Assembly (NCBI RefSeq): GCF_002067135.1
Contig: NZ_CP020105.1
Coordinates: 3,100,001-3,164,000, forward strand
Reading direction: 5' to 3'
Source: Spirosoma rigui
GTDB lineage: Bacteria > Bacteroidota > Bacteroidia > Cytophagales > Spirosomataceae
Length of the DNA stretch: 64,000 bases
The notes below the pieces were generated by a model, which did no database searches, was not told the origin of the DNA, and saw only the letters and a list, made by a program, of their open reading frames with translations. Of this stretch, positions 1 through 51,141 are shown one piece after another. Made by a program: the position numbers and the translations under genes. How positions within the stretch are numbered: the first letter of the stretch is position 1; every line of letters begins with the position of its first letter.

Positions 1-3000
1 CAGTTTTTACTGTGTTTGTTTGCTGTGCCTTTGTTTGCCCAGACCCAGGCAATCAGTGGCAAGGTCACTTCATCGGAAGATGGCTCCAGCTTACCCGGTG
101 TTACCGTCGTTGTGAAGGGGACCAACCAGGGAACCACGACCAACTCCGATGGTATGTTCCAGATCAATGCGTCGCGGGGAGCCACGCTGCAGATTAGCTT
201 CATCGGGTTTGCAACCCAGAGCGTACCCGTAGCCAGCCAATCGACGATTAACGTTGTCCTGAAGCCCGATGCCTCCCAACTCCAGGAGATCGTTGTAACA
301 GCGCAGGGCATTCGGAAAAGTCAGCGCGAAATTGGTTATGCCATTTCCAAGGTAGAAACCGAAGACGTAACGGTTGGCCGCTCGCCCCAGTTAGCCCAGG
401 CGCTGTCGGGTAAGGTTACCGGCCTGGCCGTGTATAACGTCAACAACAGTGTCGATCCAGCCGTTAAAGTCGTTCTTCGGGGATACCGCTCCCTGACGGG
501 TAATAACGAAGCACTGGTTGTTCTGGATGGTATGCAAACCACGTCGACGATTCTGGCAACCATCAACCCCAACGACATCGAGAGCGTATCGATTTTGAAA
601 GGTGGTCAGGCAGCTACTCTCTACGGATCAGCCGGTATCAACGGTGCCCTGATCATCACCACTAAAAAAGGGGTGCGGGGGAAACTGAAAGTATCGTATT
701 CCAACAGCACCAACTTTGAGCAGATCAGCTTCCTGCCCCAGACACAGGACAAATACGGCTCGGGTTCGCACTATTACCAGTCGTTCGGTACGGCGGGTTA
801 CAGCAGTGATTATCTGACCCGCATGAAAGCTAACTGGCGCTCGTATGAGAACCAGCAGTATGGCGATCAGTTCGATGGTTCACTGCGGATTCAGGGCCGG
901 ACCGCTGAAGATGGCAGCCAGCTCATTATCCCGTATTCGGCCATCCCGAACGCGCGCCGGAAAGCCTTCAACACGGGCGTGTCGATGAACAACCAGGTTA
1001 ACTTCCAGGGTGGCGACGAGACAAGTTCGTTCTACATGTCGTTCGAGAACCAGAAGATCGCCGGTATCGTCCCCAACGACAAAAGTGAGCGGACGGGTAC
1101 CCGCCTGTCGGCTACCAAAGAATACGGCAAACTGACGGCGAGCTTCAACGCGGCTTATACGCAGGCCGCCTATGACCGTACCTCGTCCGATTTTTACAAC
1201 AACGTCCTCAACCAGCCTGCTAACTTACCGTTGAGCGACCTGCGCGACTGGCGGAACAACCCGCTGGCTAACCCCAACGGTTTCTACAACGATTACTACA
1301 ACAACCCGTACTTCGAAGCAGATAACAACCGTCTGAAGTACAAGGATGCCAACCTGAACGGTAACCTGAACCTGAATTTCAAGCCTACGCCCTGGCTGAT
1401 GGTTACGGAGCGGATCGGGGTGATGAACAACTCGCGGACGGGTAAGAACACCACGGGCAAGTTCCTGTACTCGGACTGGGCCAAATCCAAGTCATTCATT
1501 CCGGCGCCTTTCTACAATGATGGCGATGGTACGGGTATTTACCGCGCCATCACCGACATTCTGGGTGGCGTACTCGATTACTCCGGCACGGAAAACGTAG
1601 TCAACAATGAATTTCAGGTGCACTTGAGCAAAGACTTCGGTCCGTTTGCCAACAAGCTGATCCTGGGTAACAGCGTATACCAACGCACGACGAAGAACAT
1701 CGCCGTTGGCTCGAGCTCCATTGTGGTGCCGGACGTATACAACGTATCGAACCGCCAGGGTGAGTTAACCGGCGGTGAAGCAACCACGCAGGAGCGCCGG
1801 TATGGCTACTACGCCGACTTCACGTCGAACTACAAAAACTGGCTGATCCTGAACGGTACATTCCGTTTCGACGCAACGTCCCGTTTCTACAAGTCATACC
1901 GTCCGGCTAATACGTGGTCGTATCCGTACTACGGGGCTGCTCTGTCGTTTGTGGCTACCGACGCGTTCCCGGCTATCCGGAGTTCGTTCCTGAACTACGC
2001 TAAACTACGGGTGAACGCCAACAAAAACGCGAACGACAATATCCCACTCTACGGACTGGACCTGGCCTATAACAACGGGGCGGGCTTTCCCTACGGAAAT
2101 ACGGTTGGTCTGACAGTAGGAAACACCTTGCCCGACGCGAACCTGCGGCCCGAAACGGTTTATTCGGCAGAAGTGGGTGGTGAATTCCAGCTGCTCAACA
2201 ACCGCATCAACATAGACGTATCGGCCTATACCCAGAACTCGAAAGGGCAGGTGATTACGGTTAAGGTACCGAACTCAACGGGTTTCAGCAACCTGCTGAT
2301 CAACGTGGGCGAAACCAAGAACTGGGGCTACGAAGCGGAGTTTAAGTACCTGATTGCCCGGGGCGGTAAGTTCTCCTGGGATGCCAGCCTGCGGTACTCC
2401 TACAACGACAACAAAGTGCTTGACCTGTACCCCGGCATCAACGAATTCCAGTACGGTGGCTTTGCCTATGCCAACACCAACGTCATCAAGGACTCCCGGT
2501 TCCCGATCCTGAAAACGGATGGTTACCAGTATGCACCCGACGGTTCCGGCCGTGTGCTGGTCAACGCGACGACCGGCTACCCCCTGCGCCAGACGACCCT
2601 GTCGCCCCGCGGTGGTGTTCTGCCCCGGCACATTGCCGGTCTGGGCTCGAAAGTAGAGTACGGCAACTTTGGCTTCACCTTCAACTTCGAATACCGCGGT
2701 GGCAACGTTATGTTCAGCGACCTGGGTCGTCAGATGACGTTCACCGGAACGGGTAAATGGACGGAAAACCGTGCTCCGCAGATCTACCCGAACTCGGCTT
2801 ACCTGGGTCCGGATGGAACGACGGTTATTCCAAACACCACGGTGAACGTGCGGGAAGCGGAATACGGTCTATGGGTGGACAACTACCGGCTTATCTCGGA
2901 GAACTTCGTCACGCCCGCCTGGTTCATCAAACTGCGGGATATCAACCTGGCGTACCGCCTTCCCCAGAGCCTGCTGACCAAAACGAAAATCTTCTCGGCG

Positions 3001-3216
3001 GCCAGCATCTCGTTCTACGGCCGTAACCTGATCACGATTGTCGACAAACTGAATTACTACACAGACCCTGAGTTCAGCTACCAGGGCAACCCGGCACCGG
3101 GTAGCCAGGCTACATCGACGCCAACAACGAACACGGCCATCGGTATCGGTATCAACACAACGGGTCAGACCCCTCCGGTGCGTCAGTACGGGGTGAACAT
3201 CAACCTTACATTCTAG
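1..3216 (+). CDS. SusC/RagA-family TonB-linked outer membrane receptor (5' partial)
   Basis: Outer membrane barrel that imports oligomers, probably glycans or peptides, with energy from TonB. The frame is open from base 1, so the true start lies left of the window; the first codons (QFLLCLFAVPLFAQ) look like the end of a signal peptide. A carboxypeptidase-regulatory-like beta domain follows (ISGKV, LPGVTVVVKGT, GTTTNSDG), then a plug domain (EIVVTAQGIRKSQREIGYAIS) and a long barrel. The last residues (NINLTF) end in Phe, as outer membrane barrels do. No STN domain is visible before the regulatory domain. The paired SusD gene starts 22 bases downstream. Substrate cannot be read from the sequence. 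Confidence 0.93.
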   Translation, partial: QFLLCLFAVPLFAQTQAISGKVTSSEDGSSLPGVTVVVKGTNQGTTTNSDGMFQINASRGATLQISFIGFATQSVPVASQSTINVVLKPDASQLQEIVVTAQGIRKSQREIGYAISKVETEDVTVGRSPQLAQALSGKVTGLAVYNVNNSVDPAVKVVLRGYRSLTGNNEALVVLDGMQTTSTILATINPNDIESVSILKGGQAATLYGSAGINGALIITTKKGVRGKLKVSYSNSTNFEQISFLPQTQDKYGSGSHYYQSFGTAGYSSDYLTRMKANWRSYENQQYGDQFDGSLRIQGRTAEDGSQLIIPYSAIPNARRKAFNTGVSMNNQVNFQGGDETSSFYMSFENQKIAGIVPNDKSERTGTRLSATKEYGKLTASFNAAYTQAAYDRTSSDFYNNVLNQPANLPLSDLRDWRNNPLANPNGFYNDYYNNPYFEADNNRLKYKDANLNGNLNLNFKPTPWLMVTERIGVMNNSRTGKNTTGKFLYSDWAKSKSFIPAPFYNDGDGTGIYRAITDILGGVLDYSGTENVVNNEFQVHLSKDFGPFANKLILGNSVYQRTTKNIAVGSSSIVVPDVYNVSNRQGELTGGEATTQERRYGYYADFTSNYKNWLILNGTFRFDATSRFYKSYRPANTWSYPYYGAALSFVATDAFPAIRSSFLNYAKLRVNANKNANDNIPLYGLDLAYNNGAGFPYGNTVGLTVGNTLPDANLRPETVYSAEVGGEFQLLNNRINIDVSAYTQNSKGQVITVKVPNSTGFSNLLINVGETKNWGYEAEFKYLIARGGKFSWDASLRYSYNDNKVLDLYPGINEFQYGGFAYANTNVIKDSRFPILKTDGYQYAPDGSGRVLVNATTGYPLRQTTLSPRGGVLPRHIAGLGSKVEYGNFGFTFNFEYRGGNVMFSDLGRQMTFTGTGKWTENRAPQIYPNSAYLGPDGTTVIPNTTVNVREAEYGLWVDNYRLISENFVTPAWFIKLRDINLAYRLPQSLLTKTKIFSAASISFYGRNLITIVDKLNYYTDPEFSYQGNPAPGSQATSTPTTNTAIGIGINTTGQTPPVRQYGVNINLTF

Positions 3217-5228: not shown

Positions 5229-5368
5229 TCTGTTTAAACGCCAGTTGGCTTATGGGGAAGAAACCTAACCAGTGGTACCCTTAGCCGACCGGCAGCCCGC
5301 CAGCGGCAGACGACACAAACCTTTTAACCGAAATGAAGTTAATTCAGGTAGTGTAAAGACTCACGGAT

Positions 5369-5890
5369 ATGAAAGACGAAAAAGACGTTGAGCGCGACGA
5401 CGCGCAGATAATTGGTCGTACCGATGGCCCCTTCGGCTCTGATGATGCCGATGCCGACCTGGTGGTGCAGGACAACAAAAACCGGCCTGAAGTCGACGGG
5501 TCGGCCAACGGTCTCGACAGCGTTCAGGTACGCGGTGGACAGGATGGCCGCAACAACCGGGGTATTGGCAGCACCGATATGGACAGCCAGAACGGTCTGC
5601 TCCGGATGGGTGACACCGACGAAAGTACGATGGACGTAACTGAAGCCGGAGCCAGCACGGCAGCCGCCGGTGGCGATAAAACAAACACCGCTATGGTCGA
5701 CGTAACAACGAGTGGCCCCGATGATTATGCATCGGCCGAAAAGGTTGGCGTACCCAACGCGCAGAAGGCTGCCAAAGAGCAGGATAATGCCGACGAGGAG
5801 GAAACCAGCACTGACGATGACGAACAGGCTGAGCGGGAAGAAGACATCGCCGAAACCGGAACGGACCTGAACAACCAGCCTTCGTACTAA
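5369..5890 (+). CDS. Highly acidic, probably disordered protein
   Basis: No family recognised. The 173-aa product is dominated by Asp, Glu, Gly, Ser, Thr and Ala, has no cysteine, no signal peptide and no membrane segment, and its C-terminal third is almost a run of acidic residues (EEETSTDDDEQAEREEDIAE). It is expected to be soluble, cytoplasmic and intrinsically disordered. A second protein of the same character starts 33 bases after its stop, so the two probably form an operon. It could be a hydration or stress protein, or a cation or nucleic-acid-mimic protein. These are guesses; the frame itself looks real because it is long and its neighbour has the same style. Confidence 0.65.
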   Translation: MKDEKDVERDDAQIIGRTDGPFGSDDADADLVVQDNKNRPEVDGSANGLDSVQVRGGQDGRNNRGIGSTDMDSQNGLLRMGDTDESTMDVTEAGASTAAAGGDKTNTAMVDVTTSGPDDYASAEKVGVPNAQKAAKEQDNADEEETSTDDDEQAEREEDIAETGTDLNNQPSY

Positions 5891-50148: not shown

Positions 50149-50230
50149 ATGGTTTTCCGGCTATTCCGGGCAGGATCAGGGGGAGGCAGGAGATCGTTTT
50201 TTGGGGGTGGTGGTGCCGGATGGGGTGGGG

Positions 50231-50268
50231 CACAAAAACAAACGCCGGACTCATCGCGGAGCCGGCGT
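50231..50268 (-). terminator. Rho-independent terminator of the tRNA-like RNA
   Basis: On the minus strand ACGCCGG pairs with CCGGCGT around a 13-base loop, followed by TTGTTTTTGTG. It lies 60 bases past the 3' end of the tRNA-like fold. Confidence 0.75.
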
Positions 50269-50327
50269 GTTCGATTACACTTCATCAACAAACTAAAATC
50301 GGTTACCGGCCGGAGCCGATAAATTGC

Positions 50328-50484
50328 TGTAGGAGGGGGACTCGAACCGCCCACGGTGCAGTTAGCCATAGCACAACTCTGGTGGTCAACCCCAGTCGCC
50401 TTTGCAGGCGGCATTATGCTGCGTTTATCCCTTATCACCACCCCCGAGACAGGAGGGCACGTCTGCCAATTTCGACATCCTACA
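50328..50484 (-). tRNA. tRNA-like RNA with Leu-type D arm and an oversized variable region
   Basis: Read on the minus strand, TGTAGGA (5') pairs with TCCTACA (3') as a 7-bp acceptor stem. TG at positions 8-9 and TCGAAATTGGCAGACGT form a D arm very like Bacteroidota tRNA-Leu, with a T-T mismatch at 10-25. CCCTC/GGGGG is the anticodon stem with a 7-base loop CTGTCTC, which puts GTC (Asp-type) at the anticodon (50448-50450) and an unusual T at 37. The 3' side has the T loop TTCGAGT with stem GGCGG/CCCCC (one C-C mismatch). Between anticodon arm and T arm lie about 89 nt instead of 10-24, with possible hairpins CGCC/GGCG and GTGC/GCAC. No CCA is encoded. It could be an unusual tRNA, a tRNA with an insert, or a tRNA mimic. 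Confidence 0.6.
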
Positions 50485-50543
50485 GTGTGAGAAAAAGAAT
50501 CAAGAAGACCGGCGTGTGACCCCGCTCGATCAACTTGACAATA

Positions 50544-50576
50544 CAAAGATACTAGACTGTTGTCTTATGTTGCAAA
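50544..50576 (-). promoter_or_regulatory. Promoter of the tRNA-like RNA (TTTG-N21-TATCTTTG)
   Basis: Minus strand: TTTG at 50573-50576 and TATCTTTG at 50544-50551, 21 bases apart. Transcription would start near 50537, about 53 bases before the mature 5' end. Confidence 0.65.
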
Positions 50577-50623
50577 TTTTGCATCAAAATTCCTAAAAAT
50601 TTACAAAACATCTAAATTATTGA

Positions 50624-50631
50624 TAATTTTG
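50624..50631 (+). promoter_or_regulatory. Promoter -7 element of the Lrp-type gene
   Basis: TAATTTTG matches TAnnTTTG, 28 bases before the ATG at 50659, in AT-rich DNA suitable for Lrp self-regulation. Confidence 0.5.
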
Positions 50632-50658
50632 TTGACACTCATCAAAAATTGAGGAACG

Positions 50659-51141
50659 ATGACCGAGAAAAATTTAGAAATTGATAATACTGACCTTAAA
50701 ATCCTGAGTTTACTCATGCAGGATGCCAACATGGCTTATACCGAAATTGGCAAGCGAATTTTCGTTTCGGGGGGTACGGTACACGTCCGGATGAACAAAT
50801 TGAAGCAGATGGGAATTGTGCGGGGCTCGCAGCTGGTGATCGACCACGCCAAACTCGGATGGGACATTAGCGCGTTTCTGGGCATCTACCTCGACAAAAG
50901 CTCGCTTTACGAAGAGGTTTCCCGCCAGTTGGAGCGTATTCCGGAGGTGGTGAACGTGCACTATACAACCGGCATTTACAGCATCTTTGCAAAAATCGTT
51001 TGCCGCGATACGCAGCACTTGCGGGAAGTCTTGCACGATAAAATTCAGAAAGTGAGCGGTATTCAGCGAACAGAAACGTTTATCTCGCTCGAAGAAAGCG
51101 TTAACCGGCCAATTCCCTTCGGCGAAACGAAAGAAAATTGA
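50659..51141 (+). CDS. Lrp/AsnC-family transcriptional regulator
   Basis: A 160-aa regulator. The winged helix-turn-helix domain (LEIDNTDLKILSLLMQDANMAYTEIGKRIFVSGGTVHVRMNKLKQMGIV) is at residues 6-55, and the RAM ligand-binding domain follows (SAFLGIYLDKSSLYEEVSRQLERIPEVVNVHYTTGIYSIFAKIVCRD). Such proteins form octamers and respond to amino acids; the ligand is unknown here. It is divergent from the tRNA-like RNA and shares its AT-rich control region, so it may regulate it. Confidence 0.93.
   Translation: MTEKNLEIDNTDLKILSLLMQDANMAYTEIGKRIFVSGGTVHVRMNKLKQMGIVRGSQLVIDHAKLGWDISAFLGIYLDKSSLYEEVSRQLERIPEVVNVHYTTGIYSIFAKIVCRDTQHLREVLHDKIQKVSGIQRTETFISLEESVNRPIPFGETKEN

Follow-up and report, generated by a model that had tools for sequence, protein, structure and literature searches.

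A tRNA-like RNA with a giant variable arm in Bacteroidota and phages, and its proposed role in asparagine synthesis

Deinococcus, Thermus and Bdellovibrio make asparagine on tRNA: in such systems, according to passages of PMC4206432, aspartate is loaded onto a tRNA with a U1-A72 pair and amidated there by GatCAB, with AsnRS and GlnRS also present. Those passages ascribe tRNA-Asn-dependent synthesis as well to genera, some of them Bacteroidetes, that have AsnRS, GlnRS and GatCAB but no asparagine synthetase. The carrier in the described systems is the decoding tRNA-Asn, charged by a relaxed or second AspRS. Here we describe a candidate carrier of another kind from Spirosoma rigui (order Cytophagales, class Bacteroidia, phylum Bacteroidota). 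The window is the whole 64,000-nucleotide (nt) stretch of contig NZ_CP020105.1 from position 3,100,001 to 3,164,000, and the element in question is a tRNA-like RNA encoded on its minus strand. We consider it probable that this RNA is a non-decoding carrier, charged with aspartate by AspRS, on which GatCAB converts aspartate to asparagine in the service of asparagine synthesis. Unlike the described systems, this one would use a separate, decoding-disabled RNA and an ordinary AspRS.

With tRNA-Asp (GUC) the RNA shares the loop CTGTC-C and G73, and also G2-C71 as listed for E. coli; it differs in base 37, in U1-A72 for G1-C72, in the lack of U20a, in an 88-nt variable region and in a Leu-like D arm. 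Like class II tRNAs (Leu, Ser, Tyr) it carries a long variable arm on a covarying stem, and it has a Leu-like D arm and the 7/5 acceptor and T stems of Leu and Ser tRNAs, but its variable region reaches up to 123 nt and its triplet is of the Asp type. Staphylococcal tRNA-Gly species serve cell-wall synthesis, a parallel for tRNA duplicates taken from decoding for metabolic use in which amino acid, enzymes and structure differ. Transfer-messenger RNA (tmRNA) is likewise a large tRNA-like RNA and shares a phage stretch with the RNA in 7 of 79 loci. The RNA differs from it by a full anticodon arm, and a tmRNA or tmRNA fragment was rejected because the host tmRNA is a separate gene elsewhere. Passages of PMC7609411 give a lengthened acceptor or anticodon stem as a feature of allo-tRNA and tRNA-Sec. 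The RNA has 7/5 stems, with no extension of the acceptor, and a 5-base-pair (bp) anticodon stem, so that neither identity fits, and the allo-tRNA suggested in an initial annotation of the window was dropped.

A conserved RNA family

The RNA (50327-50484) folds as a full cloverleaf in which 88 nt separate the anticodon stem from the T stem. The initial annotation had read a 7-bp acceptor, a Leu-like D arm, a 5-bp anticodon stem, the loop CTGTCTC with T37 and the T loop TTCGAGT, all of which are present on the minus strand; its figure of 157 nt becomes 158 nt once G73 is included, and its variable region of about 89 nt measures 88 nt. Two mismatches that it reported look different beside relatives. 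The T stem can be read as 5 pairs with one bulged C (GGG-C-GG/CCCCC), in agreement with GAAGG/CCTTC and GGAGG/CCTCC elsewhere. Positions 10 and 25 are indeed U-U in the window, as in 7 of the 12 sequences of a first alignment, yet the remaining 5 have an A-U, G-C or U-A pair there, and all 19 sequences of a second, short-armed alignment are paired at these positions. ARAGORN called no tRNA in the 64-kb window. Rfam, proposed in the initial annotation as a check, gave no match for the RNA at gathering thresholds and no tRNA-family match even at E<=5 in 50200-50660, and the energy of the single-sequence fold is ordinary (z = 0.10). The case for the RNA therefore rests on comparison.

A DNA search found the RNA in 31 of 39 genomes: every one of the 25 from the genus, counting the window's own, and 6 of 14 from other families; the match in one of them, G011, is partial and lies at a contig end. 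Scores from a covariance model, R1, built from 12 diverse copies, fall into separate ranges: complete copies reach at least about 72 bits, a 76-nt short form scores 68.5, and ordinary class II tRNAs stay under about 60. Counted by eye, 211 of the 291 genomes of the order have a strong R1 match; the tool's own tally of 276 takes in ordinary tRNAs. Because 13 of 23 matches to model R2 were ordinary tRNA-Leu or tRNA-Gln, scores below about 65 bits were not counted as the RNA. R2 did recover copies broken by contig ends in three genomes (G164, G184 and G216) and the short form in two (G242 and G300), although the majority of the other gatB-bearing genomes with weak or absent RNA matches still gave none. 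Multiple copies per genome are common, and tandem arrays with a spacing of about 200 nt are frequent. A pattern scan of named genomes returned at least 119 stretches; among the 80 matches listed, 79 titles are from Bacteroidota and one reads 'bacterium', and Spirosoma, Dyadobacter, Hymenobacter, Pontibacter, Cyclobacterium, Algoriphagus, Fulvivirga, Flammeovirga, Emticicia and Saprospiraceae are represented along with others. The RNA was not matched in a plasmid search.

The exact pattern also occurs in 80 IMG/VR contigs, complete in 78 and cut by the contig end in two. Of 79 viral stretches, 31 hold no other tRNA, 26 at least five, and 10 also hold tRNA-Asp. Another tRNA or tmRNA lies within 10 nt of the RNA in 25 of the 79 and within 200 nt in 35, always on the same strand; in 24 of these 35 the nearest is tRNA-Ser. 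A search of annotated phages returned one 636-kb record, which bears no annotation, and a second query returned none.

Absence of covariation in the arms across related genomes was one of the findings that the initial annotation had named as evidence against the RNA, and covariation is present. In the alignment of 12 sequences, 97.6% of cells are paired and 7 of 24 pairs have changed on both sides, for a score of 0.275 against 0.134 in shuffled and at most 0.107 in slid alignments; a further measure, of pair types, is not above shuffles in this set (481/500). The 19 short-armed sequences give 99.3% paired cells, 13 of 24 pairs changed on both sides and a score of 0.413, where shuffled alignments give 0.196 and slid ones no more than 0.168. 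The two alignments share a single sequence (L030). All four stems of the cloverleaf are backed in this way: the 7-bp acceptor, the D, the 5-bp anticodon and the 5-bp T stem. The variable arm opens with a 4-bp covarying helix (GGUG/CACC, GGAG/CUCC, GGGG/CCCC, GAAG/CUUC or GAGG/CCUC), and inside it a 5'-side A[U/C/A]A[A/G]A and a 3'-side YYAA occur together in 160 of 183 host copies and 35 of 59 phage copies. Its length varies from 7 to 123 nt in hosts (median 77) and from 49 to 102 nt in phages (median 79). A group I intron or other inserted element, the latter raised in the initial annotation, was rejected, the arm being kept over many families with a base helix that covaries. The RNA is a real, conserved family without an Rfam match, far beyond chance, and as first described it is unlike a normal tRNA in its Asp-type triplet within a Leu-like body, its odd base 37 and its giant variable arm.

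A 76-nt form with the variable arm nearly absent was read in three genomes of one genus, G035, G242 and G300 (L354:1539-1614, L376:1501-1576 and L377:1501-1576). GlnRS is absent and AsnA present in genomes with this form where tested (G035 and G300). ARAGORN calls it tRNA-Asp(atc), and apart from this call the family is unannotated wherever we looked. No description of the RNA was recognised in the open-access literature searched, most subscription papers being outside its scope; a review of non-canonical tRNAs contains no word starting with Bacteroid- or Cytophag-, and Cytophaga is absent from the main text of a survey of 104 structured RNAs. Palindromic repeats of the TCCCGATAGCTATCGGGA type lie in several variable arms (L128:2691-2822 and 2871-3002, L366:1496-1632 and 2052-2200, L162:5004-5152), and in two tandem copies such a repeat replaces part of the D and anticodon arms. 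By eye, CCTCCTGTCT resembles the 16S 3' tail, a likeness that was set aside.

Identity elements and co-occurrence with GatCAB

Identity elements were counted over 281 rows representing 242 distinct copies, and loop bases over the 240 readable loops. Two L128 copies were left out of the loop count because a foreign hairpin stands in for part of their arm. Passages of PMC9976931 list G73, G34, U35, C36 and C38 as strong determinants of tRNA-Asp, call G1-C72 and G2-C71 also crucial, and describe G1-C72 as strictly conserved in bacterial tRNA-Asp; for E. coli, passages of PMC6523644 include G2:C71 and G10. In the RNA, U35, C36 and C38 are found in 240 of the 242 distinct copies, and G34, U35, C36, C38 and G73 jointly in 225. 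G2-C71 is present in all complete copies and U1-A72 in 238 (one of the 242 is cut short); with both acceptor pairs added, the whole set stands jointly in 222 copies, one of these cut short. On amidation of Asp-tRNA, passages of PMC9976931 report that U1-A72 permits it and that G1-C72 and U20a block it. The loss of G1-C72 is thus what an amidation substrate would need. The D-loop G pair reads GGCA in 242 of 242 copies, which lack the U20a antideterminant, and host tRNA-Asp reads GGTTA. The term 'tRNA mimic', used in the initial annotation, is too vague for this: the conserved set is near that of an AspRS substrate, with the addition of the U1-A72 pair read by GatCAB. Among the tRNAs of the window's genome, tRNA-Asp has the loop CTGTCAC (A37), G1-C72 and U20a, tRNA-Asn has U1-A72 and G73, and tRNA-Gln has A1-U72.

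Decoding elongator tRNAs typically have a purine at position 37 and U at 33. Base 37 of the RNA is U in 228 loops, C in 10 and G in 2, hence a pyrimidine in 238 of 240; at position 33, 219 loops have U, 15 have G and 6 have A. Decoding looks disabled, because a pyrimidine stands where host tRNA-Asp has A37. The RNA also combines a long variable arm with G73, as do Ser-type class II tRNAs; the 76-nt form is the exception.

The presence of GatCAB was judged from gatB alone. In a sample across the phylum, RNA-positive genomes were counted by eye and class members with neither RNA nor gatB were inferred from their absence among the matches listed. All 30 RNA-positive class members have gatB; 3 have gatB without the RNA, and at least 35 have neither (Fisher's exact test 3e-16, kinship ignored). 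Beyond the class, gatB often occurs where the RNA does not; the RNA is seen there in one family, f66. We then searched for GlnRS in 75 genomes of the class, selected by their RNA and gatB status. It was found in 22 of 26 genomes with an intact RNA, all of them gatB-positive, in 1 of 25 with gatB and no RNA (G082), in 3 of 3 with a divergent gatB and in 20 of 20 with neither, and it was missing from the one genome with a decayed copy (G288). It was also absent from all four gatB-positive, RNA-negative genomes tested outside the class. AsnRS was matched in 80 of 80 genomes (76 over the cut-off), including all 75 of the class. A genome with both GlnRS and AsnRS does not depend on GatCAB to make Gln- or Asn-tRNA for translation. 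Among the chosen class genomes of this kind, gatB is found in 22 of 22 with the RNA versus 4 of 24 without it; the remaining 20 of the 24 lack gatB, and three of the four carry a GatB-AspRS fusion. From the GlnRS counts, an ordinary gatB with no RNA occurs almost exclusively in genomes lacking GlnRS. RNA-positive and RNA-negative states both occur within families f1, f14, f23 and f24.

The fused proteins, 1101-1116 amino acids long, join GatB to a complete AspRS (L463:957-4259 in G307, L464:1253-4567 in G290, L465:1026-4373 in G500 and L466:1286-4621 in G091). GatB is N-terminal and a full bacterial AspRS C-terminal, by Pfam on all four and NCBIfam on two. In G091, which lacks GlnRS, the fusion is a second gatB, and gatA adjoins the fusion gene in both genomes checked, G307 and G091. 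At reference position 31, all four fused enzymes have His, which we take to be the mark of a relaxed AspRS; in 40 stand-alone AspRSs the residue is K, L, F, I or A. The fusion looks like a one-chain asparagine transamidosome. Lineages that have it may make asparagine on tRNA-Asn with the fused, relaxed AspRS, and others on the RNA with an ordinary AspRS. Three of the four RNA-negative exceptions with GlnRS and gatB support the carrier proposal, because GatB is fused to AspRS there. When stand-alone AspRSs of 19 RNA-positive and 15 gatB-negative genomes were compared at no less than 80% agreement per group, a single C-terminal I/L position differed; on this comparison, stand-alone AspRS has no RNA-specific residues.

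Proposed function and its rivals

In the proposed cycle, ordinary AspRS would recognise the Asp-type anticodon loop and G73 and charge the RNA with aspartate, and GatCAB would recognise the U1-A72 pair and amidate the bound aspartate to asparagine. Base 37 (33 or 34 in some lineages) and the giant arm would keep the RNA off the codon, because asparagine delivered through an Asp anticodon would poison translation. The asparagine would be released or passed on, and AsnRS would then load it on normal tRNA-Asn. An AsnC-type regulator probably tunes transcription of the RNA to the asparagine level, in the manner of E. coli AsnC, which in passages of PMC4482635 and PMC8707732 activates asnA until asparagine abolishes the activation. 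The initial annotation had placed the RNA upstream of lepA, which holds in the window and fails in other clades; a tie to lepA was rejected, since the neighbour differs by clade. The neighbour that recurs is a divergent AsnC-type gene, within 1.2 kb in 75 of 118 non-redundant loci (78 of 128 with duplicates). The window's own regulator scores 162 bits to the AsnC model, under its cut-off of 227, and 47.5 to Lrp.

Asparagine synthetases were searched for in 80 genomes. Twelve gave an asnA match, 11 of them over the cut-off, and 69 have asnB-type proteins over the cut-off. In five of the 26 class genomes whose RNA is intact, G000 (the window's own), G010, G039, G452 and G566, neither is over the cut-off. 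The window's genome has no asnA match, and its single AsnB-like protein fits a lasso-peptide cyclase model better, at 403 versus 189 bits, both under the cut-offs. The gene for this cyclase-like protein lies outside the window at G000:C1:417940-419607 (L419:2941-4608).

A number of observations weigh against the carrier proposal. Position 10 is U in the window and A, G or U in relatives, so that the G10 determinant is not conserved, and the G1-C72 determinant has given way to U1-A72; AspRS may for both reasons charge the RNA poorly. Of the 240 loops, 226 have G at position 34, 13 have A and one has C, and a contig-end copy in G184, outside the set of 242, has A37. AsnA or AsnB is over the cut-off in the other 21 of those 26 class genomes, and the RNA is thus not simply a replacement for asparagine synthetase. 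The RNA also occurs in some GlnRS-less genomes, where GatCAB has another job. A gatB match was found in 57 of 80 genomes of the order picked mostly for a weak or absent RNA match, a figure explained by the lack of GlnRS in the RNA-negative ones, and G082, from the window's own genus, has GlnRS and gatB with no RNA found by R1 or R2. Some RNA-negative genomes are fragmented and have congeners with the RNA, and the tallies ignore phylogeny. The AsnC link may be old synteny, because suf genes are also nearby (of 128 loci, 39 have a member of the family that sufB represents and 16 one of the sufC family), and no asnC was next to asnA in 10 asnA regions.

The strongest competing explanation, though we hold it unlikely, is that GatCAB amidates aspartate on ordinary tRNA-Asn by way of a relaxed AspRS, the known route, with the RNA regulating that system or acting as its decoy, for instance through AsnC-controlled titration of AspRS or GatCAB. 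Host tRNA-Asn does have U1-A72 and G73, an AsnC-type gene is the neighbour, and tRNA-Asn-dependent synthesis is what passages of PMC4206432 propose for AsnRS-, GlnRS- and GatCAB-bearing genera, some of them Bacteroidetes. A relaxed enzyme is, however, something that gatB-negative relatives should not afford, and by sequence no consistent AspRS difference separates them from RNA-positive genomes, whereas the GatB-fused AspRS does differ, with a His31 found in none of the 40 stand-alone enzymes. The joint absence of gatB and the RNA is also left unexplained.

Charging by SerRS for some non-translational use, to which the long variable arm, G73 and the 24 of 35 close phage cases with tRNA-Ser nearest lend some appeal, we regard as improbable. 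SerRS is not known to read the anticodon, which leaves the invariant U35, C36 and C38 unexplained along with the gatB link, and the 76-nt form of G035, G242 and G300 offers almost no variable arm. We give as little credence to an unusual Asp isoacceptor active in translation, even though this would account for a place in phage tRNA clusters, where 25 of 79 viral copies have another tRNA or tmRNA no more than 10 nt away, and would agree with the ARAGORN call of the short form. The host has a normal tRNA-Asp of its own, as do 10 of the 79 viral stretches; the pyrimidine at 37, the G or A at 33 in 21 loops and the A or C at 34 in 14 do not suit such a role, and the covariation with gatB is left unexplained. 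A decayed tRNA or chance cloverleaf, for which the ordinary fold energy and the decayed copy in G288 might speak, is refuted in practice by arm covariation, with family-wide conservation, a promoter motif and 80 viral contigs besides, and we assign it practically no probability.

The locus, the viral copies and their meaning

Features of the locus are collected in Table 1. Its promoter elements are named after the -7 and -33 consensus of Bacteroidota, as we take it to be. TAnnTTTG stands within 150 nt upstream of the RNA in 91 of 123 distinct regions, against 14.9 in shuffled sequence and 28 on the reverse strand. A spaced -33 TTG accompanies it in 62 regions, for which the two controls give 1.4 and 5; the RNA would be expressed from these elements. 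A sigma-70 scan of the window gave one weak site on the strand of the RNA. To the 3' side, at 50274-50298, the minus-strand segment TTTTAGTTTGTTGATGAAGTGTAAT recurs in loci of the genus read far enough and in L025, from another family.

Table 1. Features of the tRNA-like RNA and its flanks, in window coordinates
Feature	Position	Strand	Basis or remark
tRNA-like RNA with giant variable arm	50327..50484	-	158 nt, tRNA positions 1-73, CCA not encoded; model R1, 168 bits
Acceptor stem, 5' strand TGTAGGA, U1 pairing with A72	50478..50484	-	sequence; U1-A72 kept in relatives
D arm, Leu-like	50459..50475	-	sequence and relatives; G18G19 present, U20a absent
Anticodon arm CCCTC-CTGTCTC-GGGGG	50441..50457	-	sequence and relatives
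Anticodon triplet GUC (Asp)	50448..50450	-	followed by U37 (50447) and C38 (50446)
Giant variable arm	50355..50439	-	4-bp covarying base helix, inner motif GATAAA...CTAA, more hairpins
T arm, loop TTCGAGT	50335..50352	-	five-pair stem, a single C bulged
Acceptor stem, 3' strand TCCTACA	50328..50334	-	sequence and alignment of relatives
Discriminator base G73	50327	-	G in 241/242 distinct copies; remaining copy cut short
Predicted 5' leader	50485..50537	-	inferred transcription start; similar sequence across genus
Bacteroidota-type -7 promoter element TATCTTTG	50544..50551	-	sequence match to consensus
-33 promoter element TTTG	50573..50576	-	sequence match to consensus
Terminator-like hairpin, then T-rich stretch	50243..50267	-	by eye; terminator scan reported none
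AsnC-type Lrp-family regulator, divergent from RNA	50659..51141	+	profile match

Several further features mark the phage loci. Phage arrays hold a second kind of tRNA-like RNA, with 12 matches of 103-148 nt and no obvious anticodon arm, in which a Leu-like acceptor and D arm (AGTCAGGTGGCG...) and a T arm (ACAGGTTCGAATCCTGTCCTGACTA) are common and the middles quite different (L344:5065-5185 and 5270-5412, L348:7479-7599, three in L288, two in L293, L349:9536-9674, L343:3170-3298, L335:39-153, L333:716-818). ARAGORN did not call those in L344, L349 and L333. In the variable arm of phage copies of the carrier candidate itself, a perfect palindrome of at least 10 nt follows GACCAC in 23 of 44 distinct segments (2.2% of shuffles), against 0 of 62 host segments; the count leaves out copies without GACCAC (4 of 59 phage, 108 of 183 host). 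Examples are L306, L310, L274 and L276. The palindrome is a possible kissing-loop dimerisation site. A hairpin-like insertion in the D loop was seen by eye in phage copies L352, L280, L347, L324, L317, L312, L310, L311, L314, L279, L283, L301 and L335.

Taken at its widest, the proposal is of a tRNA family in Bacteroidota and huge phages that would be purely metabolic, a decoding-disabled RNA cofactor for the conversion of aspartate to asparagine. It would be the sole asparagine route in some hosts, perhaps in the window's genome; phages would carry it to sustain asparagine during infection, and other lineages would have fused GatB to a relaxed AspRS instead. We see about even chances that this wider account is right. 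The work brings to light an RNA family missed by Rfam and, the short form excepted, by ARAGORN. It offers a concrete answer, at least for Bacteroidota, to why some bacteria with AsnRS and GlnRS keep GatCAB, provides a testable basis for asparagine metabolism in a large bacterial group, and may explain a passenger of phage tRNA clusters. If the proposal is true, a tRNA has left the genetic code and now serves amino-acid synthesis as an RNA cofactor, which would bear on ideas about the origin of the code.
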